Shown in pieces: positions 3,966-49,987 of a DNA stretch of 64,000 bases. Below the pieces are notes generated by a model. The model was given only the letters and a program-made list of their open reading frames with translations, was not told the origin of the DNA and did not search any database. How positions within the stretch are numbered: position 1 is the stretch's first letter; the number at the start of each line of letters is the position of its first letter. The position numbers and the translations under genes were made by a program. Source of the stretch: Acholoe squamosa (taxonomy: Eukaryota > Annelida > Polychaeta > Phyllodocida > Polynoidae); NCBI GenBank assembly GCA_949317995.1, contig OX439050.1, forward strand, positions 20,662,061 through 20,726,060, in the 5' to 3' direction.

Positions 3966-4529
3966 TGAGTTGTCTAAGCCCATCTATCTCACAAAATAAG
4001 AGTCACCATCTGGATCTAACTGAGGGGCCTACCCTGTACCTGTGGACCTCTATGGTTGTCAAATCTAGAATTTACATCACAGCTCAGCACCTAGTAATGC
4101 CCCCCTTTGCCCACTTATGACATTAACTTTAGACACAGAACAAATCCTTGATGTACAAAAAGAGACAAAAGGGTTACTCTCATATTTTCACCAAACTCAT
4201 GAGGATACAATGTCATAATGGCCATGAAGTCCCATGGAATATGAACTTCACTTGGAGCACCCTTAGAATGGCAAGGTCTGTATCAGAATTACTGTGAAAG
4301 GATCAAGTGTCAATTGTCTGGATGCCCTTTTTCATTAACACCTAGGTCTAAAAGTCAATGCATAATATTGCATAATATCTATACCCTATAAACTGTCTAT
4401 ATGATATATTGTATCTTGGCGACTGATTATAATAACTGCACATGTAGTGTTATCTTTAGCCAATAAACAGTGTTAAAACTTCAAACTTCATAGGATAATA
4501 GAGATAAGGAGAATTCCACAATGTGTAGC

Positions 4530-5265
4530 CTTAATGTATGGGTAGTAGTATAGGGAAAGTTATTCTTAGGAAAGACAATGTGTGGGTAGAAGTATACGGA
4601 AAGTTATCCTTAGGGAGGGCAATGTGTGGCTTGCTGTATGAGTAAAGTTGCTCTTAGGGAGGGTGATGTAGTAGTATAGGGAAAGGTATCCTTAAGAAAG
4701 ACAATGTGTGGTAGAAGCATAGGGAAAGTTGACCTTAGGGAGGGCAATGTGCAAGTAGTAGTACATTTGTATAGTGAAAGTTACACTTAGGGAGGGAAAC
4801 GTGTGGGTAGTAGCATAGGGAAAGTTGCACTTAGGAAGGGCAATGTGTGAGTAGTAGTATAGGAAAGGTGTCCTTAATAAAGACAATGTGTGGGTAGTAG
4901 TAAAGGGAAAGTTGACCTTAGGGAGGGCAATGTGTGGGTATTGGTATAGTGAAAGTTACACTTATGGAGGGCAGTGCGTAAGTGGTATTTTAGTGAAAGT
5001 TACACTTATGGAGGGCAATGTGTGGGTAGTAGTATGGTGAAAGTTACTCTTAGGGAGGGCAGTGTGTGAGTAGTAGAGGGAACATTGACTTTATGAAAGA
5101 CAATGTGTTGGTAGTAGTATAGGGAGAAATACACTTATAGAGGGCAATGTGGGGGTAGTAGAATAGGGAAAGTTGCACTTAGGGAGGGCAATGTGTGGGT
5201 AGATATTTATAGGGAAAGTTACACTAAGGGAGGGTAAGGTCTGGGTAGTAGTAAGCCATCTGCAC
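4530..5265 (+). repeat. Minisatellite, about 43-bp unit
   Basis: About 17 variable units of the type GTGTGGGTAGTAGTATAGGG followed by AAAGTTACACTTAGGGAGGG. The same units form a much shorter array, 4-5 units, at 24,490-24,680 in the paralogous copy C. The array therefore expanded or contracted after the copies separated. Open frames across it are repeat artefacts. Confidence 0.9.
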
Positions 5266-7588
5266 TTGAACTATGTTAAGCTTTCATGAGATATCATCCC
5301 CCATTTTCATTGGTTAGGTTGGAAATTGAACAACAGTCCAATAGATTAATTCAAAACAGTGCAACTAGTGATGATGGAGCCCATTCTTTTAATAAACAGA
5401 CACATGCTACCCATGCAATGTAAGCCTTGATAAGGGCATCCTACTGCTTTATGGGTTGTAATGACAATATAATGAAGTGCTGGCAGGTAAAAAATCCACC
5501 ACTGTAATGTGTGGACCATGACCACATAAGAACAAAAAGCTTGAAATATGGTGCGTCCCTTAACGTTTGTAACTTCACCAATTCACATCAGAGCTGAGGT
5601 CATATCACAGAATGCATGATTCAGAATCAGGGAATGACAAATATCAATACCATGAGATTAAACTCCCTGCCAAGAGAAATTACCCTCAATTCAGGACAAT
5701 TCCTAACAGATCAGACAGACAAGTGGTTGAAAGGGTTGGGATGGGAGTCAAGCCATGTGGATGCAGTCACAAGAGTGAAAGTTAGGACAGTGGTAGTTAT
5801 ATTAAACATGGTCTATATCTGATCATTCAGGCACCATGTAAAATTAAAGGTCAAGTAGAAGATCACTTCCCATGCTTTTAGTCTTTTCAGCTTTATAAAA
5901 TACAATTGGACAGAGTACTCTGAGAGTTATTGCCATCCTTTTTACTAATCTAATGAAAGCTTGAACTTGGATAGGGAGATTGAGAGAACTGACAATTATG
6001 ACATGGACATTCAACAGGCACTCAGCAGTTTTGAACAACATTAATTCCTTTATGTCAAGACGTATAACCCACTACCGAGTAGAGTAAGTCCATCTATATG
6101 GAATTAAAAGTATGAGATATGCACTGCAGGATTTATAAGTTCTGTGATCCTGAGCTGTTAGATATTCTTATCAAGTGCCGATGTCTTTGGATTCCCTTGT
6201 AGGGTAGACTGAAATCGAATCAACCACTTACTCCTCTTGGTAACCACAATATTTTAGAGGGATGAAAGGTTTTTGATTTTTGGGAATTGCCACTCGCAGT
6301 AGTGTATGGAAGGCCTAGGGTAGAAGGGGAGGAGGGAGAGACCTCTCCTCTTCTTGCCCTTCATGGCAAGAAGAGGAGTCAAATATATAAGATCAATATA
6401 GGAGAGAAGAAAGGGGAAGATTCTGTTAACTCTACTTTCTTTGGTAGGCATAATTATTATCTGGGGTATGTTAGCTCTGTCCTTGGAATGGTTCCCATTC
6501 TGGGGTGGATATTTGGTTGATACCTACAGAAGAGGGTTCCGTGAGTTGCCTTATCTGAGTGTGGGTGGGCCATTCGCCTACATTAGTGTGAGTGGGCTGA
6601 TGAGTTGACTAAAAGAGTCTTACAAACACCTTTTCCCCTTCACACTGCAGGAATGTCCATCCCAACATCACCCTACTCAACTAAAGGAAATACATATATA
6701 GGGTTAATATCATGTAATCTGGTCATCAGTGACTAGCATATATAGAACTTAACAACAGGGTTTCAATCTTGAAAACTTAAGTAACTAAGGTGGGTCTTCT
6801 AACTAATAAACCTTGAGCAGTAACAGCCGCCTCCCTCTACCCCACCCCTAAAAAGGGGGAAAAGGCCAAAGTTGGGGCTATGTTAGATCTGACATGTTCT
6901 AACAGTCTTCTTTATCAATTCTTTTGTTGGTTAGTGAGGAAACCTCAGAAGCTTTATTTCCAGTTTGTTTTTGATAACGACATTTGTTGATTTCATCTGG
7001 TTGTAACCCAACACAGAACATCCAACATAAATACACTCTCAGGCTCTGTCACTAAGGTAATATTGATGGTGGTCTAAGCACTCTAACAAGACCGTCTGAT
7101 GTCAATAATTGGCAATAAACATGTGATGGCAAGCTGACTCCGAGGGCTTGTGTATTTGCTGCATGCATGCTAGAAATGTGACTGTTTTTGAGATACAGGG
7201 ACCTCTATGAATAAGGCATGGCTTGCATATTAATAATCAGGTATGATTCATTGTAAGTTGTAATGTTTTATGTTCTTGCAGAAAAGGCAGACAGATTTTT
7301 CTTAAAAGGAACATTATTCTATTTTAAAGGGGTGCATGACTGTGATAACTTCTGAATTACATTAAAACCTTTTGATTTCTCAAATTTGAATAACCAATTA
7401 CCTTTCTGTAATTCATGAAGGCAGATGAGATAAAAACATGACAATGGCTTCATAATACTGTTAGTCAAGATGACTGTATGATCTGTTTGCCCTTGAAACA
7501 TTGTGACAAATATTAGCATAGCCATTTTCTGATTACCCAATTCTGTGTTGTGTAGCCCTTTGGTGACATCTGCTACTTTTCAGGGTGA

Positions 7589-8008
7589 AATACAGCCAAT
7601 CAGAGCTTGTCCTCACACTGACTGCTGACCTTAGGTAGCCCTTACCTTTGATATGTGCAAAATACCCATGGCAGTATGATGTCACTGTGCTGTCACATAG
7701 GGGTTGACCCAGGGGTTACCATGCCCAGCATAGATCAAGGAAGGAGGGAGGTGACTACCTCTGGCTGTCTATGTAATTACATACACCCATGGGTCCCACT
7801 TCTGAGACTTCCCCTCATATTTGTCACCACCAATGTACCATGTAGATTAGGTGGACAAGTTATATATGGATAGGATCAAATATGGCCACTCGGTTTATTG
7901 GAGCATCACCTACTAGCGTTGTGTTTTTTCGGTGGGTCAAAATTCCACGGGTGAGTACTATAATTCAAGGTTCAATAGCAACCTAGTAATAGCTTAGACT
8001 TTGGTAAT
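7589..8008. mobile_element. Insertion-like block specific to copy A
   Basis: Copy B runs directly from the equivalent of 7,588 (GGGTGAAA) to the equivalent of 8,009 (AAAGACATG), giving an empty-site comparison. The 420-bp block shows no clear terminal inverted repeats and no coding motif. A short AAA microhomology lies at the junctions. It could be an insertion in A or a deletion in B. Confidence 0.45.
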
Positions 8009-8402
8009 GACAAAAGACATGGTCCAGAGATGGGAATTTTTTCTCACACCAAAAGCTGGTACTACTCATGTCTTGCAAGACTAGTATTGATGAGAATTAT
8101 GTCACAGGGGGCAACGCGATTTAGCTTGATAGCTCACAAGCTGCCGCTGTTGCCATGTAATATGGTATGGGCTGGGGTAACAACATCATCTATGATTGTA
8201 TCTGTACACCACAATGGAACTTCTGGGAATTAGTAAGTATAGCTATACTTCAGGTGATAACTTGCTATGGAAATTTTGTCCTAGTTATATTAATGTCAGA
8301 TAAAAACTTTCCATCAGTGAAACTTCTGCTGTGGGAGCCTGCTACAACAATGCCGTGGTTGACTTTATGCTGTCTGACTATACTTATAGAAATCAGATCC
8401 GA

Positions 8403-9277
8403 AAAATCTGTAAAACGAAACTGAAATAAAGGACTTAAAAAAAGAAAAATTCTTAGAAAATCACTCAAGGCTCAAGTTTCAGTCTCCGTAGTTACTATTA
8501 ACTTTCTCTCTCATCAGTCCCCAAAGATTTCTAAACAGCATCATATACATATACCGGTTTCCCAAGGTAAAATAAATGTTGACCTTGATCATGCTCACCT
8601 GCAATGAAATAGAAATAGAAATGGATTACTTCACCATAAAGCATATTAATGTAGTACATTCGAAAATGGGATTTTGTAATTCTGCATAAATCTGTTCCAA
8701 ACATTGTATTAATTTCATACACAAAGGATAAGTTATGATAAAATGTGATCCATGGGCAGAAAAGAGTCAGGCTTGGGGAACCATAATATTCAGCCTCAGG
8801 CTTCCTCCAGTGCTTTTTTAATGGGTGCAACTTAATTCGTGTCCTCCGAAATGTGCATCTTAGGCTTAAATCTATCAATAACACTAAAATTCTAATAGAA
8901 TTGCTGAGAATAAGGATGATTAAAGTGTACAGTTGGGTAATACTAATCTATTTGAACATACTGTCATATTTTAGAGAAGATTTATTTTTGAGACCCAATC
9001 ATCGGATATACTAACTTTAAGTAATAGATAATAATGATTCATCACATATGAACTATGTGATGAAGAAAGCAGAACTTTTGCCATTATATTCTGTTTCTAT
9101 AACTTTCATCACTTTCCTGTCAAATATATAAGGAACATAAAACTATTAAGTGAAAATATCTGGTAAAACGAAACTGAAATAAAGGACAAAAAAAAAGAAA
9201 ATTCTTAGAAAATCACTCAAGGCTCAAGTTTCAGTCTCGGTAGTTAATATCAACTTTCTCTCTCATCAGTCCCCAAT
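8403..9277 (+). repeat. Direct repeats of about 120 bp flanking 635 bp
   Basis: The segment at 8,409-8,524 (GTAAAACGAAACTGAAATAA through CTCATCAGTCCCCAA) recurs at 9,163-9,277 in the same orientation with few differences. The intervening sequence is unique AT-rich DNA with no recognised gene. This could be a decayed element with terminal direct repeats, or a simple local duplication. Confidence 0.6.
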
Positions 9278-9343
9278 CATCCCTGTTCTGGACAGAGGGA
9301 TGCCCGGCAACCCAAGACAGCTGTCTAAGGGGGCAATTGACAG

Positions 9344-10225
9344 ATGTAGATGCTACGGAGCTCCTAATAGGACATCCCCCAAAAAAAAGAATTTCTGGAG
9401 AAAAAAATATTCTTGCAGGTACTCAACAGTTCTTGTCGATGCACAAAAATTCTTGCAGATGCACAAAACATTCTTGCAGATGCACAAAAAAATCTAGCGG
9501 ATACACAAAAAATTCTTGCGGATGCACAAAACATTCTTGTGGTACACAATATAATTCTTGTGGGTATACAAAATGATTCTTGTGGATGCACAAAACATTC
9601 TTGCAGGTACACAAAATAATTCTTGCAGGTGCACAAAATAATTCTTGTGGGTACACAAAATAATTCTTGCGGGTGCACCAAAAAAATCTTGCGGATGCAC
9701 AAAACATTCTTGTGGGTACACAAAATAATTCTTGCAGGTCCACAAAACATTCTTGCGGATGCACGGAGATTTGTTACAGATGCACAAACATTCATGTGGT
9801 TACACAAATCAATTTCCTTTAACTGCATGAATTACTTCTGCATCTGCAAGAGTACTTTGTGTAACCGCAAGAATTATTTGTGTACCCGCAAGAATTATTT
9901 GTGCACCCGCAAGAATGTATGTGCACCCGCAAGAATTATTTGTGCACCTGCAAGAATTATTTGTGCACCCGCAAGAATGTATGTGCACCCGCAAGAATTA
10001 TTTGTGCACCTGCAAGAATTATTTGTGCACCTGCAAGAATGTTTGTGGACTCCCATGAATTATTTGTGCACCCGCAAGAATGTTTGTGCACCCGACAGAA
10101 TTATTTGTGCACCTGCAAGAATGTTTGTGGACCCCCATGAATTATTTGTGCACCCGCAAGAATATCTTTTTGGGGAAAAAAATCATTTTTGGTATGTCCT
10201 ATTAGGGGCTCTGTAAGATGCTGCT
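9344..10225. mobile_element. Foldback element with mirror-image 21-bp minisatellite arms
   Basis: Outer inverted repeats include CTCCTAATAGGACAT on the left (9,361-9,375) and ATGTCCTATTAGGGG on the right (10,194-10,208). The left arm, 9,405-9,810, is a tandem array of 20-22 bp units (ATTCTTGCAGGTACACAAAA and variants). The right arm, about 9,840-10,165, is the same unit in reverse complement (CAAGAATTATTTGTGCACCC). The whole forms a near-900-bp hairpin. Because 21 is a multiple of three, long open frames appear on both strands in several phases; they are artefacts. No transposase is present. Confidence 0.85.
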
Positions 10226-10279
10226 ACAGTCTGGTGATGATTACTCCCACCTTCTTCCCTCTACTCTGTCACCAGTTTT

Positions 10280-10492: not shown

Positions 10493-11185
10493 CATTTGCC
10501 CCATGTGATGAGGTCTCACAATACAAAATTACTGTTTTTTTTTATTTCAACTGTTCAGCATCAATAAATACAGAGGGACAGACTACTCTGAGGGTTATTG
10601 CCATCCTTTTTCTCATCTTATTAAAGCATGAATTTGGATCGGGAATTTTAAGGAACCTACATAAGGTTTGCGCAATGAAATAAATATCATATTGGTTTTT
10701 TATTAGCTCACCTTAAAGAAGACATCCCCTTTGTCCATTTTCAAAGTGGCAAGGCAATTACATGAAAGCTAGAGTCAGTCTTAAAACCATGGGCATTCCT
10801 CAGGCATCCAACAGTCTTAAACAGTATCAATTCCTTTATGTCAAGGTGTATAATCCACTGCCAAAGATAGTAAATCCATCTAGAATTAACAGTATGTGAT
10901 ATGCACTGTAGGATTTATAAGTTCTGTCATCCCAAACTCTTTTCTAATAGATTGTCTTATCAAGTACTGAGGTATCTGGATTCGAATCCAAGTCGCTATT
11001 AGTTCAAAGTCAAATGACAACTTTACCTTACCATGGCCATGTCCCTTGCCTGGGAACATAGAATGCTGCTGTCAGTCAGAACGTTATCTACACTACACAC
11101 ATCGGTGTCCAAATCCCACCAGCTTTTAAGTGACACAAACAAGTAGGCTCTCTCACACACTCTATGGACACACCTTGTAGGGTAG

Positions 11186-11847
11186 TGTAACAGTTTTTGG
11201 GCATTGGAGAATTATTGGGTAATTTAGATTATCCCTCGGAAACCTTAAGCGTTTCCGGAAACCTACGAGAGAGGTGGATTCGCGCATGCGCAGTCAGTTC
11301 AGGAAAACGCGGCAACAACAACAGTCAGTTCTTACAGTTCACCACTGTTTTAGCCTGTTGTATATTCCCTGAACCGCTAGGTTCCCTCGGTATAATCTTA
11401 ATTATACCTCAACTTACAGGTAAGTCTCGAATAATTTCAAAATTAAACTATAAGCCTAACTCCAGGGGGAGACTAAGGCTGGGGATGATTGAAGATGGCC
11501 AATTCTATAAAGTCTACATAATGGAAACAAGACAGACTCTTTCAACTATAATTAATACTTATATTGTCCACAAATGGTACAAAGCCTCAAATACAATATG
11601 ATAGTCACAAGTCAGCAGTAATAATGTAATAATCCTGACCCTGCACAAACCACCCACCAAAAATGGAGCTCTATGGCTTACCTTCCTGGCTGACTGGTCT
11701 CTGGTGCAAAAAGTGACCAGTGGTCAGTTACACAGTCCCCACCAGCCTGCCTGCCTAGGTCACATGACCTCCAGCCCTACAGGTGGAGCCACAAGAGGGT
11801 GATGTAATGTTACCCGGTGGTTCCCGCCCATAGGGGTTCCCGTTACA
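11186..11847 (+). mobile_element. Solo LTR of an LTR retrotransposon (fossil)
   Basis: Begins TGTAACAG and ends CCGTTACA, the TG...CA form usual for LTRs. The flanks are GTAG on the left (11,182-11,185) and GCAG on the right (11,848-11,851). Copies A and C show the uninterrupted site GGGTAGACTG, so the insertion is clean with a 4-bp target duplication (one difference). Length 662 bp. It contains the palindrome GCGCATGCGC and a donor-like CAG/GTAAGT near 11,417-11,425, both plausible for an LTR promoter and leader. No internal region is present. Gypsy-like is a guess. Moderately old. Confidence 0.8.
11282..11291. promoter_or_regulatory. NRF-1-type palindrome inside the solo LTR
   Basis: GCGCATGCGC is the core recognised by NRF-1-like factors in animals. 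It sits inside the LTR, upstream of the donor-like CAGGTAAGT. A role as LTR promoter is inferred, not shown. Confidence 0.35.
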
Positions 11848-13380
11848 GCAGACTGAAATATAATCAACGGTTAACCCCTCTTTATAACAACAATGCTTTA
11901 GAGAGATAAAAGGTTTTTGATTTATGCGAATCAACACTCGCAGAAGTGTATGGAAGGCCTAGGGTAGAAGGGGAGGAGGGAGAGGGGCCAGGGCAAGAAG
12001 AAGGGGCAAATATATAAGATCAGCTACAGAGAGAAGGAAGGGGAGGATTGTGTTAACCCAACTTTCTTTGGGAAGCATAATTATTAGGTGGAGTATCTTA
12101 GCTCTTTCTTCCAGTACAGACCTACATTAGTATGAGCGGGCTGATGGGTTGACTAGGAGGGGCTATGCAACCACTTTTTCCCCTTCACACTGCAGGAACT
12201 TCCATCCTGATATCACCTTATTCAATTGAAGGAAATACACAAATAAGATTAATAGGATGTAATCTGGGCATAACAGACTAGCATGTAAAATGTAACAAAC
12301 TGACCGTTTAACCCTTTAAGCTAAGAAGGTTTCAATCTTAACAACTTTAGTACCTCAGGTGGGTGTTCTAACTAATAAACCTTAAGCAGAGATAGCCACC
12401 ATTTCCCCCTCCCACCTCCTAACAAAGTGGGAAAAGGGCAATTTTAAGGCCATTAGCCGACATGTTAAATTTGTCAGGTTTTAATGCGTTTTGCACTGAT
12501 AAGTGGAAAAACTCTATTTTCAGTTAATTTTTGACTAAAGCATTATTTTACCTATCATTTCCTGCATCTTTTCCTTCAGAACAGTGCAACATGCCTCCAA
12601 GGCCTTAGCAACAGTATGCCGTCTAAACCCATACAGAAAGCAACATTAATATCCACCCAGAACTGTTCACTAAGATGACATTGAGCGTCTGATAATTTAG
12701 CAGTAAACATGTGATGGCAAGCTGACTCTGAGGGTTTGTGTATTTGCTGCATGCTAGAAATGTGACTGTTTTTGAGATACAGGGACCTCAGCAAATAGGA
12801 GACAATGTGTATATTGATAATCAAGCATGACTCACTGGGTGCTGTAATGTTTTTGTTATTGCAGAAAAGCAGACAGTCAAGATTTTTCTCAAAAAGAATT
12901 CTATTCCAAAGGGATGGATGACGTCAACAACTTCTGTATTGAAAAAAACGTTTTGATTTCTCAATTGCCTTTCAGTAGTCTGGTTATTCATGGAGACAGT
13001 TGAAATCAAAACATAACAATGACTTTGTATGGAAACGGTTGCATGATTGGCGAGCCCTTGAAACACTGTGACAAATTCTATGTTGTGTAGCCATATGTTG
13101 ACTTGTGCTTCTTTTCGGGGTGAAAAGACATGTTCTAGAGATAGGAATCACACTTCTTCTCACACCACAAGCTGGTACTACTCACTTCTCACAAGACTAG
13201 TATTGATGAAAATTATTAATGAAAATTACTCCTGTCCAATAGACCTTATCACCCTTTTTTAATCTATATAATGCCTTTTGTTGTATTAGATTAGCTGTAT
13301 CTTAGCTAAAGTTTCAATTTCCTGCTTTATTTCACCCCTTAGTTTCCCTATTACTACTCCCCGAAAGCATCCATCACTTT

Positions 13381-24289: not shown

Positions 24290-27015
24290 CATGAGGACAC
24301 ATATTAGCCATGAGAGTCCTATGTAATATGTGCCTTCAATTAGAGGGCCCTTATAATGGCAAGGTCTGTATCATAATTACTGTGAAAGGATCAAGTGTCC
24401 ATTATCTGGATCCTCTACTTCATTCCCTCCCAACTCTAAATGTCAATGCATAGGATAATAGAGATAAGGAGAATTAGACAATGTATATAGCCTAAATGTG
24501 TGGGTAGTGGAAGGTTACCCTTAGGAAAGACAATGTGTGGGTAGTAGTATAGGGAAAGTTGAACTTAGGGAGGGAAATGTGTGGTTAGTAGAATGTGGGA
24601 AAGCTACACCTTGGGAGGGCAAAGTGTGAAGTATTATAATGGAAATTACTCTCAGGGAGGGCAATGTCTGGGAAGCCATGTGCACCTGAACCATGAACCT
24701 TTCCAGAGATATCATTGAACATGACATAGACCAATAGGCATACTTTACAGATCAGTGATACACTACAATCTTTTTTCATTGATTAGGTTGTCTTGTAAGC
24801 AATGCATCAATTGAACAACATGTCAGTCCAATAGATTATTGCAAAACAGTGCAACCAGTGATGATGGACCCCATTCTTTTAATAAACAGACACATGCTTC
24901 CCATGTTCAGTATGGCCTTGATAAGGACATCCTACTGCTTTGTGGGTTGTTATGACACTGTTGTGCAGTGCTGGCAAGTAGAGTATCCAGCACTGTATTT
25001 TGTGGACCATGACCACATAATGCCTGAAATATGGTGTGTCCCTTAACATTTGTAACTTCACCAATTCACATCAGAGAAGAGGTTACATCACACAACGCAT
25101 GATTCAGCATCAGGGAATGACAAATATCAATACCATGAGATTAAACTCCCTGCCAAGAGAAATTTCCCTCAATTCAGGAAAATTTCTGTCAGATCAGAGA
25201 GACAAGTGTTTGATGGGGCTGGGATGGGAGTCACACCATGTGGGTGCAGTCACCAGAGTGGAAGTTAAGACAGTGGTAGTTATATTTTACATGGTCCATT
25301 CCCAATCATTTAAGCACCGTGTATGATCAAAGGTCAGCTAGAAGATAGTTACTTCCCATGCTTTTCTCTGAAAAGGCCTACCATTATCTGAGTTGTAGTT
25401 GTAAAAACAGTCATCAGTATCCACTTGGACAGGTTACAAGCAGAACATTACAAACAGACAGTTCTTGACAGCTTCAGCTTTATTCCAACAGCCAATAACC
25501 TGTGACACCATCATAAGTCATACAGTTGTTTTATTTTCTGTCAGTTCAGCATTATTTAATTAATAGGGACAAACTACTCTGAGGGTTATTGCCATCCTTT
25601 CTCCTGATCTTATGACCACTTGAATTTGGATCGGGAATTTGAGAGAACTGATGATAAGGTGTGTGCAAGGAAATGAAGTGATTTTTGATTAATTTAACTG
25701 AAAAATAGAAAGTTATCCATTTTCACTGTGGTGTCTCATTTATCTGAAGATTACAGTCAGTTGTAAACGATGGGCATTCAACAGGCACTCAACAGTCTTG
25801 AGCAACATTAATCATTTATGTCGAGAACCATAACACACTACCAAGGAGAGTAAATCCATCTAGAACTAACCATCTGAGATATGCAGTGCAGGATTTATAA
25901 ATTCTGTGATCCCAAGCTGTTTTCTGATAGATATTCTTATCAAGTGCTGATGTATCTGGATTCAAAATCCAAGTTGCCATCAGTTCAAAGTCAAATAACA
26001 ACTTTCTGTTACCATGGCCCTGTCCCTAGCTTACAAACATAGAAGGCTGCTGTCAGTCAGAACGTTATCTACACTACCCATGTCTGTGTTCAAATCCCCC
26101 AGCTTTTAGCACTGACACAAACAGCTAGTCTCTCTCACATACCCCATGGGCACACCTTGTAGGGTAGACTGGAATAGAATCGACAACTTACCCCTCATGG
26201 TAGCCACAATAATTAAGAGAGATCTTTTACTTTTGTGAATCACCACTCAAAGTAGTGTGTGGAGGGCCTAGGGTAGAAGAGGAGGAGGGAGATGGGCATG
26301 GCAAGAAGAAATATATTTATAAGATCAACTATAGGGAGAAGGAAGGTGAGAAGCGTGTTAACCCAACTATCTTTGGGAGGCATAGTTATTAGCTAGGGTA
26401 TGTTATCTCTGTCCTTGCAGTGGTTCTCATTGTTGGGTGGATATTTGGTTGATACATGCAGATGAGGGTTCTGTTAGTTGCCTTATCTGAGTGTGGGTCA
26501 TGGGCCTACATTAGTTTGAGTGGGCTGATGAGTTGACTAGAAGAGCTGTGCAAACACCCTTTCCGCTTCACACTGCAGGAACATTCATCCCAACATCACC
26601 CTATCTAACTAAAGGAAATACATAGGGTTAATATCATGTAATCTGGTCATAAATTACTAGCATATTAAACTTAACAAACTGACCGTTCACCCCTTTAGGC
26701 TAACAGGGTTTCAATCTTTAAAACTTGAGGATGGTCACTACTCTTTAGTGAAGATACATAGAATTTGTTCATTTTTGGTGTGTAAGTACCTGAAATCATG
26801 CAGAGTCGATATATGAAAAGAAAAATGGGGAGTCTCATGCTCCTTTTTGAAATACATTTCCATGTCATGGTGATCTGTGATATATTTGAAAAAATTTAAA
26901 AAAATGGGGGCTGGGGTACTTAGATTCCCAGCATGCTTTGTCCAAACCAACATGGCCTCCCTCATTATGGGTGAGTTTATTTTCATTTTTAATATTGTCA
27001 CTTGTGTCTCGAAGT

Positions 27016-27042
27016 GTTTCAGCCCTCACGGGGCCTCATCAG
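27016..27042 (-). ncRNA. Candidate hammerhead ribozyme core
   Basis: On the minus strand the order is CTGATGA, then a helix GCCC-CGTGA-GGGC closed by a G-T pair, then GAAAC. This reproduces the invariant CUGANGA and GAAA boxes with a helix II between them. After GAAA, CACTT can pair with AAGTG to give a helix III, but the junction at the cleavage position is not canonical and helix I is weak. It may be a decayed or dimer-dependent copy. Confidence 0.45.
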
Positions 27043-27269
27043 GTGTAATCTCAGGGAGCTATATTGAATTATTTCTATACCCCAATGGGAAATTTACATA
27101 ATTTCAATTTCCCACTGTGGTCTTACCTGTGTCACTGTTTTCAGTGTTTATTTTATAGACTTGTCCTTCTTGTCAGTGGCTAGGAGTGCTCATTGTTTTG
27201 ACAATGATTTTCAATTTTTAAACCATGTGCCATCAAAAGTCAATTTTAGGTTAGAGGGGCTGCAGTGTT

Positions 27270-27455
27270 ATTATTTTTTCTTTCCAACTCGATCTATTGT
27301 GGGCCCAAGTTTTTATATTTTTTTATATTTATATGTTTTCCCACACTCACTTGGGTAAAGAAACATTAATACGGGTACTGAAAGTGTCGAGTAGAAAATG
27401 TTTCAATATAAAAACCTTGGGCCCACAATGGATCGAGTTGGAAAGAAAAATTATA
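27270..27455. repeat. Inverted repeat with about 45-bp arms
   Basis: TTTCCAACTCGATCTATTGT followed by GGGCCCAAG (27,281-27,309) pairs with CTTGGGCCCACAATGGATCG followed by AGTTGGAAA (27,416-27,444), extended by A/T-rich ends. The loop is about 90 bp. It lies within the copy-C insertion. Confidence 0.75.
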
Positions 27456-28267
27456 AAAGTATAATATAAAGTGGTATGTAGCTATACCTTTGGATATTCT
27501 GAGCATCGTAATCACTTCCACGGTTTTGTTTAGAACATGTGAGCGTTATAAATATAGGCCACAATAAAAAGTTGGAAAAATTTTAATTGAATCTCGATGC
27601 AAATATCCACAAATTTCAAAGTGCATTAAAATACTTAATTCTTATCAAAATGACCTGAAAGTTCTTGTAGTAATTAACGGATATCATTAGAACAGGCCCA
27701 CCAAAAAGCAGTAACAGCCACCTCCCTCACCCAGCTCATCCCCCTCCCCTCCCAATATCATTGTTCAGGCCATGTTCCGGCATGTTAGATTTGACAAGTT
27801 TTACTTGTTTATCAATTTTTGTGCTGGTTACTGAGCAGACCAAAGGAAATTCAGTTTTCAGTATGCTGTTGATTAAAGCATTATTTTATGTATTACTTCT
27901 TGACTTTTTTTCCCTTCAGTACAGCACCACTTGCCACACAGCCTTTTGCCTCACTACCCTGTTGTAACCCAACACAGTACATCCAACATAGATACCCCCT
28001 CAGACCCGGTCACTAAGGTGATATTGATGATGATCTTTACAGCTCTAACAAGAGCATCTGATGTCAATATTTGGCAATAAACATGTGATGGCAAACTGAC
28101 TCTGAGGGCTTGTGTATTTGCTGCATGCTAGAAACGTGACAGTCTTTGAGATACAGGAACCTCTGCAAATAAAGGATGGTTTGCACATTAATAATCAGGC
28201 ATGATTCATCGTGTCTTGTAATGTTTTATATTTGTGCAGAAAAGGCAGACAGTCAAGCTTTCTCTTG

Positions 28268-28484
28268 GTTAAGGCCCGCTGATGCATTAATCCACCATGC
28301 TCATTGGTCATCATGATGCACCAATGAAGTGGAGCATCATGCCAACCATCCAGGAGTATAATTATGTATCAACCCTGTAGGGTCATTATGATGCTCCAAA
28401 GATGTGCTGGTGAGCAGTCTCACCAGCAATTTGTTGGTGCACAATGACGACCATGGCATGATGCACTCCTGCATCAGCGGCTTG
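28268..28484. mobile_element. CCGCTGATGCA-TIR MITE
   Basis: Left CCCGCTGATGCATTAATCCA and right CTCCTGCATCAGCGGCTTG are inverted. The interior is full of CATCATGATGC-type palindromes and GGTGCA/TGCACC pairs. The equivalent site in copy A lacks it. About 217 bp, non-coding. Confidence 0.65.
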
Positions 28485-28655
28485 TAAAGGGTTGAAAAGA
28501 AAACATTTTAATTTAAAGGGTTGCATGACCGTGTTGATCCACACATCTGTATTACCTTTAAGATCTTTTGATTTCTCAATTGCCTTTCAGTAGTCTGGTT
28601 ATTAATGGAGACTTGTGATCGAAACATAACAATGACTTCGTAGGGATACTGTTGG

Positions 28656-30064: not shown

Positions 30065-30930
30065 TTTCTTTAGATTGCTAATTTTTCTTGCACCAAATAT
30101 GTCTCATATTGTATGGCATTCATAAAGTGTGAAAATATATTCTTAGAGTAGCTATAAGCATGGTGTGAGGGGATGGAATAGAAAGTTTCAACAGAATGGC
30201 ATGTAACATTTCTTTGACACAATGCCAAATGATTCCATGTACCTAAATTCTAGCAAAATATCCGATTCTGTCCATAACTGCTTATCATAGTAGAGGCAGC
30301 AAATACGGTTCGTGCTAGACAGAGCCCTGGTAATCAAGGATAAATGCCTCTATAGCAGAAATATAACTTTAGTGGTTGGGGCCAATATCTATATCAACTT
30401 ATAGAGTCTGATCTGCAACACTACCATGATATGGCAGTCCTCATCAGTGGCCCTTTGAACAGGCTTGCGTTTCATTCCAGTCTGGCGATTGTGTCTATTA
30501 TGGTGATGGCGGCTGGACCATGTAGTAATACAAAGGAAGAGAGGTTGAATAGTCAAAGGGGGGAGGGTGTATCAGAGTATTGCAAAGGTAGTGGGAGGGC
30601 TGCACATAATAATCACTTCTGTGTGATTTTGTGCCAATAAGTGGCATTCAATGTCTCTGTTTCTTGTATTCCTGGTACTTTCCTGCTACTTTCTATATCT
30701 TGTTTAGTGCATATATTTGTCTACCTTTCACTCTCCCTTTGTATTCCTATCTATAACCCTCTCTGTCTCTATACCTGTCTGTCTGTCTCTCTTTATGTCT
30801 CTCTCTCTCTGTCTCTGTCCGTCTCTGCCTCTCTCTCCATCCCATACACAACACAATCATTCTTCTGTCCTGCTTCTATCTCTCACCGTCTCCTACCACA
30901 GTTCTGTCCAACTCCCCTCAATTAGCCCAT
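28656..30930. other. No gene; simple repeats
   Basis: Contains a G-run near 28,986-28,998, the repeat related to 10,280 at about 29,513-29,580, pyrimidine-rich DNA at 29,360-29,480, and CT/GTCT-rich DNA at 30,725-30,840. The 94- and 91-codon frames here are low-complexity Ser/Leu artefacts of the CT tract. Confidence 0.5.
30001..30062. repeat. (AT)31 microsatellite
   Basis: An uninterrupted AT dinucleotide run of about 62 bp. Confidence 0.98.
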
Positions 30931-33114
30931 GCCTTCCCTACTGTACTTGTAAAGGTTCAGGTGGTGGTAATTTAGACCTAGATCAGTGGTGAATGCAGGA
31001 GTGTTTGAATCAATCCTGTTAGTCACTGAGGTGCACTTCTACACTACATCTACAGACCCTCCAGTTTAGAGCTCCTATGTCCTTTTCTTGCTGTCTTAGG
31101 ACATGGCTTGAGGCTCTTGAAAGGCAAAGTAGTGCTCTACTAAACTATGCTAATGTAGCCCTAGTGAATCTAATTTTTATCTCTACATCGTGCTGACTGC
31201 ATGGGTTTATGCAGCATTGCAGGCTAAGTCTCATGGGATCAGGACAATGCACTATATTGGTGCATAATGACAATAACTGAACACATACATGGTTATAGCC
31301 ATCAGGCAGCATTACAATATGTGTTTAGATCACATGGCAAATCCAGTAAATCAAGGCTGCACTTAAGCTCCCTTAATTGCTCAAAGAATAAGTGACTTTC
31401 ATCTCTCTCAAATTTCTTCAATATAACCTATGACCATGATACTTTCACGGCAAAGTAAGGATGGATGTAACATAATCAAAGAATTGGCAATGTGGATTTT
31501 TGATCTGGATTTCTGGAAAAGGGTGGGGCCTTAAATGTGATATGCTTGGAAAAACCTGCTCTAAAATTGACCTTTCCATTTCCCCATTGATACATCTAAG
31601 TTAACAAGTGTGTAAAGGAATCCCTATTGAAATGAAAAAAAGCAGAGGGCCTAGACACAAAAGCTCCTTAATGGGAAGCAGGATGTCCCTTTATCATAGC
31701 CAGTAGACAAAGCATCCCCAATCCCTTAACGTGTTTGTAGAATGACTGCTACTCCATACACCCTAATGAGTAAAATGGCGGTTTAGCACTTTAACATGAT
31801 GTATAGCCCAACACTGGGAGAAGGCCATGCTCATACTGGTAACTCTAAGTGCTGCAAATGGATTCAACCTTATCAGGGTTACTTTGGGTTGTTCTCTACA
31901 CTTAGATTGGAATGTGACAAGCTAAATGTATTGTTTTCCAGAACATGGTTGTGTATTTTGTGCTGGTGTCATTTGTCCTTATTGTAAGTAGATTTGACGA
32001 TGTAGTAGCGACAAGACTTGAAAAGCTTCTAAAAAGCAATAGCTTGATTTTGAATCCTCATTCTGTGCATTCTTTATTCTCCCTTACCTCTGCAACCATG
32101 ATCTCCAAGCCTCTCCCTTTATCTCCCTCTCTCTCTCTCCTATCTCTCTCTTTCTCTGAAGAAAAGGAAATAAAATGAAGAAAACCTTGGCTCAATTATG
32201 GCCACACTGCTGTGTTAGTCAACCTGTGATCACTTCATCATGTCCCTAAACAGCCAGTGCTTACTCCTCACCACCTTCCCAGCAGTTGCTCTGTATCCCC
32301 TCTCATGATTCTTCTCTGTTACACACCCAACTCCCATCCTCATCCCCTGCCTCTAATATGTCCTATCACTAACCCCTCTACTTTGTTTACATCCTAGCAG
32401 AACCTTTCCATGTAACGACTACAGACAAGGTTCGTTACATGTTCCTGGTTAGAGGCCCCCATAGGACACCCCTCAATGTAGGTATACATTAAGTATGCCT
32501 GACAATGCTCCCAGGGGTGGAGGTAAGCAAGATAGATACAACAATGTATGCTGGTTGGGGTGAATGGAGAGGGGGTGGAGGTAGTACAGGGGGTAGTATA
32601 AGGGACAGGGGGGTGGTTGGGGCTTTGGAAATCCAAATCAACCTGCATTTGAAAGTTACTGGAAGTGCAGATAGGTTATATACTTGAAGTGAACTATCAG
32701 ACATTGAAATTTGGTGCTCTTGTTATTGATATATTTCAGAGTTCCCTGGGCCTTCTAACCAAAACAAAAGTTTTTTTAAGATTAGGGTACTTTGAGTTCA
32801 GGTTCTGAGAGTATTTTTCCAAAGCCTTTGCCAACTATTATGTGCATTCTGGCAGCAATATATGTGCCCTAGGCAGCGAAAAGGTACCTTATAAATCCAT
32901 CCCTGGCCAAAACCTCAGAAAGTTGTTTCAAATTTGGTGGAGGGGAAAATGCTTTGAATCCAGCAAATAGACTTTGGTAATGCCTGAATCTCACTTCAAA
33001 GAGTGTCAAAAGGGTCTTTTGGTGCCAAAAGTAATATATGTATTATCCTGTTGCCCCATACAACAGTTAATAATGGCCCTAGGTCACATATAGCTTCGCT
33101 CATTATAGGTTATG

Positions 33115-35870
33115 GGTCATTCTCATGAACTGTTGGCAAATGGCCTGAGGGTGACCTGAAGAGGGCTAATTTTTAGATCTATGAGCAGATAAATATCCTT
33201 TTGTCTTGAAATACTATGGGACTTGGCCCACTCATATACCAAATTGGGAACATCAAATCAGAAAACTGTGGCTATGGCACCTGGCTAAAGATACTATATT
33301 AATTATTGTACGACTGCATGAGTCGTTGACTAACGCATTTACTATTTTAGGTACTACAAGGGTTTATTTTCTATAATCCAGGTATGTTATACCTTTGGAG
33401 TTAGTTACTCTAGGTAGGGGAGAGGCTATGCCTCATATACACAGAATTTTCCTTCATGTTATCATGTGCTGAGTTGTTCTCTTTATATATTCGTTATACA
33501 GGTGGATTTGTGCTATCTTTGTTTGGTTAAGATAATAAAGTAATAATTTTATTGTAATATCTTCCCAATAGGTACACAAAGTGAAATTCCACTAAAAGAT
33601 TTCTATTCTAACATGAATGTATAAAGAGACTATCCAATTTCCAATGGTGGGTGGGTCTTGGGCATTTTGTACTCTAAATACCTGTGAAGTAGCTATAAAG
33701 ATGGGGTTCATAAATGCGTTAGTCAACGCTTCATAGACTATACAAGAGCATAATTTACCTTATTTTCAGAAGTAGGTGAGCTATTCTTTTGCTTTTTATT
33801 CAATTTCTTTTTTCAATTCAGTATCTTTGTAATTATTTGAAAGTGCTGACTTCAGATTGTATGAGGGACTTAGTTTTCAGTTAGGAGTGCCGTTGATATG
33901 CCATCTATTTCAATGATGATTATCACTATTACAGTGGTGATATTTCAAATACATCGATATTTAGAAAAGAATGAAAGCATAGGACAAAAATGAAAGGACT
34001 GGTAGATTATAATTCCATTCCCACTCCTCAGCTACTATATGAGTACTAGTGACAACTGATCCTAGGGCAGTGGCCAAAAGTAATCTCCCACTTTTCAAAC
34101 CTGAGGTATTTTGAGCCACCAGGCAGTTGACTCATGAATATTCCATATTATCAATTGATATGGATTCCAAAATTGTATTTGGCCATAACTCTGGTTCTAT
34201 TTGGAATAATTTTAAAATTTCTTCACAATTTAAAAGAGCCTGTGCTTGGGATAGAGGCCCATATCATGTTTTATCAATGTAATGCTTTTGTTGATGCGAT
34301 AATCATGAGTCCAGAAATGATGATACATCAATTCTATTGGCATCAATGACACTCCTATTTTCAGTACCGGTATATACTCAATATTTTTGCTGAAAGGAAA
34401 GTAGGAAACAAGTATCTTGATTGCACTATTAATATGGATATCAAACACTCATAAGTAGTATAATTTAGCTGGTGGTTAACATCACCCACTGTACCATGAC
34501 CATTTTACTTAAAAAACTGTGTACAGCAGACTTATCATTTATTTGTTATTTTCTTGATGATGTGGCAATTCATTCATCAAATGATTACCATAACATTACA
34601 GCTGTAAGCTAATATCATGTTTACATGGACTATGACTTTGAAGGGAATACGTTGACCTACATAAACACAATTTAGATGTATTTTTTTCTCTATATAAGGT
34701 AATAATTGAAAAGCCTGACCTAAAGCCCAATTGTTAGCATGTGGTAAACAATTGACTTCAATGATAAATAGACAGCAAAATTTCCAAAAAGAAATTGTAT
34801 GTAGTTGAGGGTTTAAGGTAGATAGATATATACAGAGCACTGGAACTGTGTAGCTGTACATAACTTTGTTGCGTTAGTCAACGCTTCAGATTAAAGTGTC
34901 AGTCAACATTACACACCATGCTGCATGGATTTATGCCACCCATTATATAGAGGAACTCTCTTGTTTAAGTATTTTGTTCTATTCATTGAAAGAGATAAAT
35001 TATGTTCAAAATAATGATGTAAATGCAAAGCACATGGGTGCTGTGTAGACCTTTTTTCTTTTTTATGCGTTAGTCAACGCCTCAAGAATTTTGCTGTTAG
35101 TCAACATTACATGCAATGTACCTTGGATCTATTACCTTATGTATGTATAGCAAATCTCTATCATTTCAATATGTTGCTTACATTATTACAAAGAATATTT
35201 ATGTGTAAAATGAAAACTTAAATATGCTTAACATGGGGGATATAGAGATATATAATTTTGTTTCTGGGTTAGTCAACGCTTCGGGAATATTACACAAATA
35301 TACCATAAAAATGTTTGATTGGCTACAGAGGCAAGTGTTTTCCATATTTTCCCAATTTCTTTTTAATACATATGTGTATAGGTAGAAAGTGTTACATAGT
35401 AACATCTAGACAACATTTATTCTAATTTTGGCAGAAGCTATAGGGGTTCTTTTTTTTATCCATTTATGTGTTAGTCAGCGCTTCAAAAATCTACACAATC
35501 TCATTTTAATGCCCACTACCTGTATTTTAGGAACTAATGAGAGGTTTAAAGCACTCCAGCAATTCATGCATTGTTAATCTATATGAAAATAATGAAATTG
35601 GCTGCATTTTCTTTCCTGATTACATTTTTTTTGTGCCATACAGCATTCTCTTACTAAGGAAAAATACCTGAAAATATGCTATTTCCACCTGTTTTTTGTT
35701 TCTCAAGCAGTTAATATTGTCCATAGAGAAGCGAAACTATATACCCAAATGTAGCCAAACATGTTGTGGACCTGATAGAATCAGTGAAAATCAATTCAAA
35801 GCAATCCTCTCAGATTTATAACATAACAAGGCTAAAATGCTGATCTGCTAACAGTTCATGAGAATTGACC
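33115..35870. mobile_element. 2.76-kb TIR element with about 200-bp periodic motif
   Basis: Left end GGTCATTCTCATGAACTGTT pairs with right end AACAGTTCATGAGAATTGACC; the TIR is about 27 bp. TTATG flanks both sides (33,110-33,114 and 35,871-35,875), and the paralogous empty site near 63,110 has a single TTATG. Inside, TGCGTTAGTCAACGCTTCA or close variants lie at 33,715, 34,870, 35,066, 35,265 and 35,467, with one inverted partial copy at 33,325-33,337. The last four are 196-202 bp apart and the neighbouring bases are related, so this is a decayed tandem repeat. No transposase frame is seen. The superfamily is not identified; a 5-bp target duplication is shared by few DNA transposon groups. Confidence 0.85.
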
Positions 35871-36019
35871 TTATGTAAGGATATGTGATTTCATTCCATT
35901 AGGTCTTCTTTAAATAACATTTGCCAAAGTGAAGTTGGTGATGAAATCAGAGCTCAGTTTAAGAGATGCATTCCCCAATCCCACTGCACCCATGATGGGA
36001 ATCAGACACCACGAGTACA

Positions 36020-36220
36020 CACTGTAAAAGATATCTGTTGAATCTATCAGGTCTCCTTGGAAAACTAAACAGTGAAACACGAAAATTGTATTTCAGTGCA
36101 GTAGTGTAGTTTCCTGAAATGAAGACCCAGATCGCAGTACTCTTGTACAAGAAATCTCCGAGGAAATAATGACACCTCTGGCACCTTTGGGACAAGGATT
36201 TCACAGTTATTTTTACAGTG
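36020..36220 (+). mobile_element. CACTGTAAAA-type MITE, best-preserved copy
   Basis: Begins CACTGTAAAA and ends TTTTTACAGTG. The paralogous duplication at about 63,250 reads AAGTACATCTATAG where this copy reads GAGTACA-element-CATGTATAG. That gives an empty site and suggests a CA dinucleotide target duplication. Body as in the other copies. The TIR start resembles CACTA/Chapaev-like ends but the assignment is uncertain. Confidence 0.8.
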
Positions 36221-36890
36221 CATGTATAGACAGATATATACGTAGTGAAGGTCCCCAGTTCTGACAGAGACAGGATTCCATCACTAAAACCTAGATTTAG
36301 GCCTTATCCCACCTAAACCCCCCAGGCCATGCTCACCGAGACACCTGGTGGACACTGGGAATACTAAACACTAGAACGTGGATGTGCCTGGATGGCAGAC
36401 ATAAACAGTTTGGATGAACTACACAGGGGATCGAGTGTGAGGCACTGAAAAAAAAAGATTTCCAGTGTCTTCTTATAAGTATGATTAAGCACTAAGTCAC
36501 TTGTTAAATCGCATTAGATGTCCTTTGTACTTTTTTTATTATTCAAGTTTAGATAGCCGTTCAAGTTTTTCTATCATCCTGTGATCACAGCCCCCTCAAA
36601 CTGTCACTATGGGAACCCGTTGGGATGGATGAATAACCATTTACAAGTGCTTTTTTAGTTTATGGAGGCTAGGTAGAAGACACAGGCAACACTGTATTCT
36701 TTGAGTGAGGATGGAGTTTGGTGTTTGAGTTGGTGAGGGATAGCATTGTTAAGGTATTTGGACTATTCCACCCACTAGCTACTCTGTGGCATACTAAGCA
36801 TGTAGATCTGTACATATATTAGTTTTGTGAACACCTCAAGTATGTCAGGCAATTGTCACATCATGGACTTTCAGTTTCACAAAGTGCATG

Positions 36891-41879: not shown

Positions 41880-43920
41880 GTATTGCTGACTAAAAGTGAG
41901 TAATTACTGACATATATTGAATAGTTACTCACAAATACTGCATTATTACCGATATAGGAGGAGGTACTAGCATATATTGACTGAATGCTGACGAAAAGTG
42001 AGTAAATACTGACATATATTGACTAATTGCTGACAAATTGTATGTAAATACTGACATGTGTTGACTAATTTCTGATATCTAGTGACTAAGTACTGACATA
42101 TGCTGAAAAATTGCTGACAAAGAGTGAGTAATTACTGACATATATTGACTATTTCTGATAAATAGTGAATAATTACCAACATATGTTGACTAATTGCTGA
42201 AAAAGAGTGAGTAATTACTGACATATGTTGACTAATCTCTGACAAATTGTGAGGAACAACTGACATATACTGACTAATTGCTGACAAAAAGTGAGTAATT
42301 ACTAATATATATTCAATGATTGCTGACAAATAGTGAGCAATTACTGACATATAGACTAATTGCTGACAAATAGTGAGCAATTACTAACATATTGAATAAA
42401 TGCTGATAAAATGTAAGTAACTACTACTATGTATTGACTAATTTCTGACAAATAGTGAATGATTACTAGCATAATTATATTAACTAATTGCTGAAAAATA
42501 GTCCATAGATACTGACATATTTTGAGACATACCAGTCAAGGCAGGATGCACAATTGAATCAATGGCTATTTCTCTGTTATATATTGAATAAATGCTGAGA
42601 GATTGTGAGTAAATACTGACATGTATTGACAATTGCTGACAAATAGTGAACAATTACTAGTGCTGACAAATAGTGAGTAAATACTGACATATATTGACTA
42701 AATGCTGACAAAGAGTGAGTAATTACTAATATAAATTATATTGAATAATTGCTGACAAATAGTGAGTAATTACTGACATTATTTTGATGAATTGCTGACA
42801 AATAGTGAACAATTACTAACATATATTAACTAATTGCTGACAAATAGTCCATAGATATTTTGACTAATATCTGACAAATTGTGAGTAAGGAAGGATGCAC
42901 AATTGAATTAATGGCTATTCCTTGTTCATATATTGACTAATTGCTGACAGATTGTGAGTAAATACTGACATGTATTGATAATTGCTGATATAAAGTGACT
43001 AAGTAATGACGTATATTGACTAATTGCTGACAAATTGTGAGTAAATACTGACATATTTAGACTAATTGCTAACAAATGGTGAGTAATTGCTAACATATAT
43101 TGACTAATTGCTGATAAATGGCGAGTAATTACTGACATATATTGACTAATATCTGATAAATTGTGAGTAATTACTGACATATGTGGACTAAGTGTTGTTA
43201 TATGATGACTAGCAACTGGCATATATTGACTGAGTGCTGACAAATAGTGAGTAAATACAATGGTAAAGGTGAACGATGATTAGTGTGAGCCAACCGTTTC
43301 TTCACGAGCGGGTCCGAGCCCGGACCATAAAGAGTTCATCTTTACATTTATGTCAAGGTGTTTGGGTTGATAATTAATTGAGATTTCATCAATATAATCC
43401 ATAATTAACTCTTATTCACACATCGTCATCGCGATATTCTGATTTACGATTCAAAAAGGCTGCGCATGCGCGGTGGACCTATGACGTCATCGTGCGGATT
43501 TCCCGCGGGTTATTTAACACAGGGGTACAATACGCGTCTCAGTGCATTGTCAATGGGGCATTGATATTCACCTTGACATAATGACAAATACTAAGTAATT
43601 ACTAATATATATTGAATAATTGGTCACTAACATCCATCTGATAACTTTTGAAGATCAAAATTCACCATATTATGGCCTGGATCCCTGTGTTTCCGAAAAC
43701 CAAGATGGCCTACACACATGGAAAACAATAGAAGTGGGTAGTTCAGGTGTCCCTATGATCATTAACATCTATCTCATAACTTTTGAACATCAAAATTCGC
43801 CATATATTGCCTGGATCCCTGTGTTACTTATAATGACTAAGTACTGACGTATATTGACTAATTGCTAACAAATGGTGATTAATTACTAAGATATATTGAT
43901 TAACCGCTGACAAATAGTGA
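41880..43920 (+). repeat. 42-bp minisatellite built from two 21-bp halves
   Basis: The unit is TGACATATATTGACTAATTGC followed by TGACAAATAGTGAGTAATTAC. The two 21-bp halves resemble each other, so this is a dimeric higher-order repeat. It runs with much variation for about 2 kb, interrupted at 43,266-43,574 and 43,617-43,830. A tract near 42,535-42,580 (GCAGGATGCACAATTGAAT) recurs at 42,890, showing a larger duplication inside the array. Minus-strand open frames are repeat artefacts. Confidence 0.9.
43266..43574. mobile_element. 309-bp insertion with AAGGTGAA ends and CRE/NRF-1 sites
   Basis: Left AAGGTGAACGATGATTA and right ATTGATATTCACCTT form a short inverted repeat, and minisatellite sequence continues on both sides. 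The interior is GC-richer than its surroundings, with TGCGCATGCGC (43,461-43,471) and TGACGTCA (43,482-43,489). A related phrase, TGCGCGG...CTATGACGTCAT, occurs at about 52,461-52,482. It may be a MITE carrying promoter-like motifs. Confidence 0.6.
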
Positions 43921-44090
43921 GGAATTACTATCATACCATAGCACTAATACTAACCTGTTATAGCCTTAAACTCAATACATGTACCGTAAAAACACAGATT
44001 AAAACACAAATTAAAACACAGTATGGCGTCAACATTTTCAATCAAACACCAGAGAATGGAGAAATGGAAAGACATCCATTCAGCAATGAC
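43617..44090 (+). repeat. Module shared with 22.5-22.8 kb
   Basis: Two units of about 135 bp with TGGCCTGGATCCCTGTGTTT and AAGATGGCC..ACACACATGG, then more minisatellite, then ACATTTTCAATCAAACACCA near 44,033. The order matches 22,484-22,830. Confidence 0.75.
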
Positions 44091-45275: not shown

Positions 45276-45279
45276 TAGA

Positions 45280-48200: not shown

Positions 48201-48286
48201 AAATTAGAACCCGATTGACGCCAGTTTTATGGTGGAAGATGGGGGGAAAATCAGAACGTCCTTGGCCCTATTAGTACCGTGACACC
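45280..48286. mobile_element. Young tandem array E-S-E-S-E (LTR-like or tandem TIR element)
   Basis: Unit E is 470 bp: 45,280-45,749, 46,548-47,017 and 47,817-48,286. Spacer S is 798-799 bp: 45,750-46,547 and 47,018-47,816. E begins GGTGTCAC and ends GTGACACC, with the inverted match continuing for about 16 bp. Each S begins and ends with TTAA. The whole array is flanked by TAGA on both sides (45,276-45,279 and 48,287-48,290). Units differ at only about ten positions per 1.27 kb by eye, so the array is recent. No protein domain is recognised; the repeated 66-, 93- and 98-codon frames are carried along by DNA identity. Terminal direct repeats with short inverted ends suggest a tandem non-autonomous LTR element; a tandem TIR-element array is the alternative. 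Confidence 0.8.
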
Positions 48287-49987
48287 TAGAAGGGCGATTC
48301 AACATCGGTGAACATGGTTCTTGTAACTATTCTTTGGGCAGTCTATGCCCAAAGAATAATAACTGTACATACATTAAGACGTCCATGGGGTCTGGTGCTG
48401 TGTAGTCTAAGTCATAAGCTACCATGAATGATAAGTACAGCCGCGCCTGTGTTCATTTGTTCTTCAAAGTCTTACTGGAGAATGCTGCTTTGTAGGTACT
48501 GCACGCGTGCTTAAACAGGGATGACCGTTTAATGTCCTCAAATATAAATTACCAATTATGTTTTAACTCGCAGAATACATCAACTGGTTCAATTTCAGTC
48601 AGTCCTCTCTTTTTCATCTCCCTCTCTACAATGTCTTTGTAAGAGTCATACACGTCATACCGGGAAAGTGCGTCTGCAAGCTCGGGGCTTTCACCTGAAA
48701 CATGTTTGACATGTATCTTTCACTGCTGCAGCGAGATGTACATTGCTAACTCTCTGGCACATGCCGCCATGAACAGATCGTGTGTTTTTCCATCCATAAG
48801 TATGGCTGCAGATGCAGAGTTGTCTGTTTTGACCATTACGCATTACGTTTGTTTGACTAGGGGGAAGCAGCGTTTTCACACCTATTACTACATTCAGGCC
48901 CTCCAGGCGGGAGATGTGATGCTCCTGCTGGTATAGTTTGGCATAGTTCACCTGGTAGTAGTGTTTTTCTGAAGAAAAAAAAAACACCTCCCAATTTCAA
49001 TGTTGAGTGCACTTCAATGAATTCCTTGTGGGAATTTCACATCCAACAGTACTACCCCATTAAACTGTTTTGTGAATTTAAGGAACCATTTTACATCTTT
49101 TTTGGCCTCGGCACCTATGGCTACCATAACACTTTTGTTGCTAGCCCTCAGTGCAGCCAGCACTCGAGTGCGGTATGCACTGGGAAATATGTGCTAATTT
49201 GCCAGTTAAACTCTGCACTTCTTGTTTGGTACTGACTGATTTTTCAAGCCATTTTTCACATTAACCCATGATTTCCTCTATCTTTCCCACTGGGATGCTA
49301 ATGCACATGGTCTCTGTGTCGAGATTTTCCCTCTGCCAAATTCATGCCTAACTCCCCTGTGAGTTGCTCAAATCACTCAGTACCATATAGAGCTTCCTCA
49401 TTTGTAGGGGCTACGCCTGCGAAACCGTCCGCATAGATTTTATGATTTTCTCTTGCCATTAAATCGCAGAGCGCATTGGATACTCTCTGCTATGCCCCCC
49501 ATAAACTTTACAGCCGAACGCTGGGGATACATCAATGTAGTATTTGCCACCATGCATTATTCACAGAAGGGGGTAGGATAGGGGACAGATCTGCAGTTGC
49601 CTAAATGCATGAGCCAGGTCGTGCTTATAGACGTGCGATCCCCTTCCCATCCTTTTTATCTGTGCCCGAGTGTGAGTACTGTGGGGATTGTGTATTTGTA
49701 ATACTCCCCTTTGTAATAATTAACACGTATGCCATCATTTACTGATACTCCATTTGGATATGACAAGTCTATAATCACCCTTCTGCGTCCCCCGTCTTTT
49801 TTAGGGCGAGTTACCTGAGACCAGGGAGCAAATGGTGGGTCGGTGAATGGTCCCAGCATTGCCCCCAGGCTGACCTCATTTTCAATGAAAGCACTTATGT
49901 CGTCATCATATATGTTTGTTTTCGCATGGTTGCCGTATGTAGGGGTGGGGGCCTGTCTGCCATGTAGCATGTCGGCCACCCATACCT

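Follow-up and report, generated by a model that had tools for sequence, protein, structure and literature searches.

An 862-bp element at positions 9354-10215 of a 64-kb stretch of the genome of the polynoid worm Acholoe squamosa (contig OX439050.1, positions 20,662,061 to 20,726,060 of the forward strand; 64,000 nucleotides, hereafter the window) is very probably a gene-less, non-autonomous foldback DNA transposon, whatever its superfamily. More tentatively, with a probability of roughly 0.4, we propose that it is the first described foldback element of IS3EU type: in this superfamily with integrase-related transposases, minisatellite-filled inverted repeats would have evolved independently as arrays of transposase-binding sites, as in Galileo, and might seed satellite DNA. 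Self-BLAST of the whole window returned the element as one inverted repeat (minus-strand match, 75.6%, E 3e-146) together with shifted versions of the same self-match; with an 862-bp self-complementary match, long inverted repeats make up most of the element. Tandem Repeats Finder (TRF) placed two arrays within it, at 9430-9764 (21 bp x 15.7) and 9825-10163 (21 bp x 16.4), and gave periods of 41 and 62 bp as well in the right arm. The initial annotation had described facing arrays of 20-22-bp units as reverse complements, which both the tandem-repeat and the self-comparison checks bear out; the extent it gave, 9344-10225, is corrected to 9354-10215 plus flanking 6-bp duplications. No other copy of the element was found in the window by BLAST (E 1e-4). 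The parts of the element are as follows.

9348..9353, no strand: target site duplication AGATGC, left copy (flush exact 6-bp direct repeat).
9354..9408, plus strand: left terminal inverted repeat or flanking domain, beginning TACGGAGCTCCTAATAGGACATCCCC (local alignment to the right end).
9409..9810, minus strand: left arm array, 19 units of 20-22 bp (TRF, unit scan).
9770..9855, no strand: palindrome centre, degenerate innermost units of both arms (arm alignment, unit list).
9812..10163, plus strand: right arm array, 17 units of 20-21 bp (TRF, unit scan).
10164..10215, minus strand: right terminal inverted repeat or flanking domain, beginning TACAGAGCCCCTAATAGGACATACC on the minus strand (end alignments, boundary listing).
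10216..10221, no strand: target site duplication AGATGC, right copy (boundary listing).

The arm alignment and the unit list revealed no separate spacer domain at the palindrome centre.

The element ends with TACGGAGCTCCTAATAGGACAT on the plus strand and TACAGAGCCCCTAATAGGACAT on the minus strand. Left (9325-9379) and right (10195-10244) boundaries were paired wherever an exact direct repeat of 2-12 bp adjoined both of them flush, and the best 25 pairs were considered. The top-ranked pair places the 6-bp repeat AGATGC outside TACGGAGCTCCTAATA and TACAGAGCCCCTAATA, two ends alike at 14 of 16 places, and its coordinates are those of the self-BLAST match ends. Where the 16-bp ends of a boundary pair are alike in at least 10 places, no exact duplication longer than 6 bp (range 2-12 bp) was present; a 7-bp direct repeat exists one base off, but the ends there are alike at only 3 of 16 places. 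The chance of a 6-bp repeat at a random pair of sites is 0.0003 in one register and 0.005 over 13 registers. AGATGC is not self-complementary, so that the duplication is not simply a further stretch of the inverted repeat. The best local alignment of the two ends joins the first 32 bases of the left to 30 of the right, while the flanks beyond the duplication have no inverted homology (score 10, equalled or exceeded by 1813 of 2000 shuffles). The shared cap CTCCTAATAGGACAT of the initial annotation is exact at the left end only; its counterpart on the right, read on the minus strand, is CCCCTAATAGGACAT, and the two have the 13-mer CCTAATAGGACAT exactly in common. A bounded inverted repeat with a flush duplication is the footprint of a cut-and-paste DNA-transposon insertion. 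The terminal inverted repeats, the flush 6-bp duplication and the facing arrays support the earlier suggestion of a foldback transposon with subterminal repeats that have expanded in each arm. Elsewhere in the window, the longest direct repeats lying flush against seven other self-complementary stretches measure 2-7 bp, and at least two of them (GGATCC, AACGTT) are themselves self-complementary and therefore uninformative; a 107-bp self-complementary stretch at 2239-2345 with the flush 7-bp direct repeat CTAATAG is perhaps a small miniature inverted-repeat transposable element.

A different origin, by local inverted duplication of an ordinary minisatellite through foldback repair or template switching, is unlikely. 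Tandem arrays are plentiful here (35 TRF rows in the window, overlapping rows counted), and foldback inversions via single-stranded hairpins are known in yeast (PMC7467729). Such an event, however, leaves unexplained both a flush, non-palindromic 6-bp repeat exactly where the inverted homology stops and a terminal repeat of about 30 bp, outside the arrays, on both sides.

Within the window, the repeat unit is confined to the element. The pattern TTGTGCACCCGCAAGAA, allowing up to 3 mismatches, has 29 matches in the window where 0.12 are expected, every one inside the element: 15 minus-strand matches reach as far as 9766, and 14 plus-strand matches begin at 9857. A unit scan gave 20 left and 17 right anchors, of which 19 and 17 were kept; the first left anchor (9388, score 10/18) lies in the terminal region and was left out of the unit set. 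The innermost right unit is weak (11/18 against the consensus), and many right-arm units end in AAATA, others in AAAC or ATAC. At 41895-43930 the window also holds a long array of diverged 21/42-bp units, with no inverted match inside it (E 1e-4).

The two arms have diverged. Aligned globally, they are identical at 332 of the 398 columns free of gaps, a further 66 columns contain gaps, no perfectly complementary run exceeds 24 bp, and unit numbers are unequal (19 left, 17 right). Chimeric foldback reads make inverted repeats too, but an assembly or amplification artefact of this kind would be expected to have near-identical arms; given the mismatches and gaps, the arm-specific variants and the difference in unit number, such an artefact is scarcely credible, and assembly foldback was rejected on arm divergence. 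From the same divergence we infer that the element is not young. Seven unit characters, picked by eye and with no correction applied to the P values, were compared between the arms. A run of four or more A occurs in 14/19 left and 0/17 right units (Fisher p 3e-6), GAT in place of GGT in 9/19 and 1/17 (p 0.008), a unit length of 22 or more in 7/19 and 0/17 (p 0.008) and TTGTGG in 5/19 and 0/17 (p 0.05); in the remaining three characters the arms are alike. Mirrored units, taken as 17 pairs counted from the centre, are not clearly closer than random pairs (675 of 5000 permutations), so no original unit-to-unit register is detectable, and the innermost three and four pairs lie below the cross-arm average. 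Separate turnover within each arm is the simplest account of the arm-limited variants; the same independent change of two ends is reported for Galileo F (PMC3573991).

The element carries no coding signal. Frames are open on both strands, as the initial annotation had noted for its seven-codon repeats (longest 198 aa on the plus and 155 aa on the minus strand). Shuffling the unit order 1000 times gave 5-95% ranges of 110-236 aa (plus) and 109-237 aa (minus), which include both frames. Of the 36 unit lengths assigned, 16 are not divisible by three; the innermost unit in either arm was set to 21 by default. Protein-coding repeats are thus rejected, the open frames being no longer than shuffled unit order yields.

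As RNA, the element has a predicted fold of -441 kcal/mol. The average over 20 dinucleotide-shuffled versions is -206 (z -41), and a control in which both arms point the same way gives -195. Of 346 predicted pairs, 315 join the two arms and 80% of bases are paired, with the arm-to-arm pairing on average about 20 bases off perfect mirror register. A locus selected for hairpin RNA (siRNA or piRNA) might look like this, the fold being far below that of shuffles and its pairs mostly between arms. Yet any diverged foldback element would fold likewise, perfect complementarity extends over 24 bp at most, and the window has no Rfam match at gathering threshold; we consider such a locus very unlikely. 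The strong predicted fold follows from the anatomy of the element and is no proof of hairpin RNA production.

What superfamily the foldback transposon belongs to is suggested by its termini. On the plus strand they read TACGG...CTGTA, that is, TA..TA. TA..TA termini are found in all complete IS3EU families, usually along with 6-bp duplications, and GingerRoot families have 6-bp duplications and mostly TA..TA termini (PMC10045372); IS3EU families of rust fungi end in TAYGG..CCRTA (PMC12730594). The element has both the TA..TA ends and the 6-bp duplication, and it is because of these two terminal features only that we call it IS3EU-like. The transposase that mobilised it was perhaps of IS3EU/GingerRoot type.

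Assignment to another superfamily (chiefly Mutator-like, otherwise hAT6 or P-like), with 6 bp as an atypical or shortened duplication, would leave the foldback reading as it is, and we regard this as possible though doubtful. Mutator elements (MULEs) make target duplications of about 9 bp. The longest exact flush duplication here, with exact repeats only scored, is 6 bp, short of that length and inside the 4-10 bp given for MuDR-type elements (MuDR and IS256 together, PMC10045372), and hAT families with 6-bp duplications exist (PMC12730594). Against these superfamilies, no register with matching ends yields an exact duplication beyond 6 bp, and TA..TA ends are a stated mark of IS3EU/GingerRoot (PMC10045372). 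Dada elements also have 6-7-bp duplications, with definable copies in small RNA genes and no terminal inverted repeats (PMC3706591); the element has such repeats, which rules Dada out. Across the window no Rfam family reached gathering threshold and ARAGORN found no tRNA.

Several points weigh against the foldback reading, the IS3EU assignment or the history proposed with them. The right terminus, TACAG on the minus strand, departs from TAYGG, to which the left terminus TACGG conforms, and the TAYGG motif itself comes from fungal families. The element is known from one copy alone, with no second copy, empty site or transposase found in the window. A role of the 21-bp units as extra transposase-binding sites is putative, by analogy with Galileo. 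Total unit distance parts the arms weakly (a difference as large as the one observed arises in 328 of 5000 label permutations); because the arms are not clearly parted in this way, it is a few characters and the unit counts that speak for separate turnover. A Pfam search (E up to 0.001) of 140 of the 149 open reading frames (ORFs) of at least 71 aa in the window found RVT_1 alone, in two ORFs; the other nine ORFs, outside the scan, lie in the element (seven) and in the 42-43-kb array (two). Exact unit and terminal patterns had no matches in a collection of viral contigs. In a collection of genome contigs the terminal pattern had seven lone matches in bacterial or archaeal records, which we take as chance; their best inverted partners within 3 kb match at only 9-11 of 13 places.

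On the reading preferred here, the element would have been inserted by a transposase acting in trans, for which the IS3EU/GingerRoot superfamily is the most probable source. Its unit of about 21 bp may derive from a subterminal binding motif for the transposase, multiplied since a set of weak sites captures the ends better, as proposed for Galileo; there, the tandem repeats of the long inverted repeats contain recurring sites bound by the transposase's THAP domain (PMC3688188). Slippage or unequal exchange would then have altered unit number and variants arm by arm, and the resulting divergence would keep the element from behaving as a perfect palindrome. Inverted repeats that lie further apart or have diverged more are said to be less able to cause rearrangement (PMC10164571), and the puzzle raised in the initial annotation, of how an array both tandem and inverted can be stable, may be eased by the divergence of the arms. 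The same source, however, has divergent repeats becoming a potent source of rearrangement in long single-stranded regions (PMC10164571).

The initial annotation knew of no standard element class with this form. This was wrong: foldback elements with tandem repeats in long inverted repeats, Galileo and Tetris among them, are a described group (PMC4079207; PMC3573991). Tetris of Drosophila virilis is likewise non-autonomous, with a flanking domain followed by tandem repeats in long inverted repeats, no conserved ORF and target duplications (PMC4079207). It differs in its repeats of about 220 bp and duplications of 8-10 bp, against 20-22 bp and 6 bp here, and in its inner and middle domains, of which none was recognised in our element. 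Galileo, of the P superfamily, also has internally repetitive inverted repeats, with unequal repeat number in the ends of F-group copies (PMC3573991), but its F-group repeats are of about 210 bp and it is placed in the P superfamily by its transposase-coding sequence.

Drosophila FB and sea urchin TU can be likened to the element by description, and differ from it in duplication length and terminal sequence. Their long inverted repeats hold short tandem repeats, of about 10-31 bp in FB and 15 bp in TU, and their target duplications are 8-9 bp. FB in D. melanogaster and TU in sea urchin are among the known foldback elements (PMC4079207).

From IS3EU and GingerRoot families the element differs in that it was matched to no transposase or named family. 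Links between IS3EU and satellites are already published: TCAST10 of Tribolium (PMC5844308) and CgiSat35 and CgiSat47 of oyster (PMC8268682) are repeat families related to IS3EU. TCAST10 has a longer repeat, sometimes in inverted dimers (PMC5844308), and the oyster satellites have units of 690 and 129 bp, respectively (PMC8268682); unlike our element, none of the three is described, in the portions of these papers available to us, as facing arrays in one bounded element. In open-licence PubMed Central (PMC) literature, 'IS3EU' occurs with 'foldback' only in an oyster satellite study, there inside a cited title, and no IS3EU foldback element is among the matches listed. Were the IS3EU assignment true, it would add a further transposase lineage with repeat-filled inverted ends, back multiple transposase sites as a convergent trait, an idea proposed in PMC3573991, and offer a clean case of a minisatellite within a bounded transposon; were it false, this would be merely another foldback element.

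The surroundings are repeat-rich as well. A 123-bp direct repeat (8402-8524 and 9154-9276, 93.5%) stops 77 bp before the element, outside it. Three paralogous segments in the same orientation (4214-8100, 10533-13216 and 24300-28654) share pieces of about 69-89% identity, and the element ends about 320 bp ahead of the partial middle copy; an array of 44-bp units is common to paralogous segments, with 16.4 copies in one (4533-5253) and about 2 in the other (24449-24715). A second collinear paralogous set (30925-36888 and 60462-64000), 27-30 kb apart, suggests a large tandem segmental duplication. At 45279-48287, about 2.4 tandem copies of a unit of about 1268 bp are 99.2% identical, either a satellite or a tandem duplication of very recent date. 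Two diverged copies lie at 2225-2986 and 57977-58612 (65% over 2367-2863 and 58111-58612), each after a short self-complementary stretch (86% and 82%, sequences unlike) and each containing a longer foldback. Finally, a reverse-transcriptase fragment (RVT_1) is found at 59049-59690, and at 50400-51333 on the minus strand inspection of the translation by eye suggests a second retroelement-like pair of ORFs.
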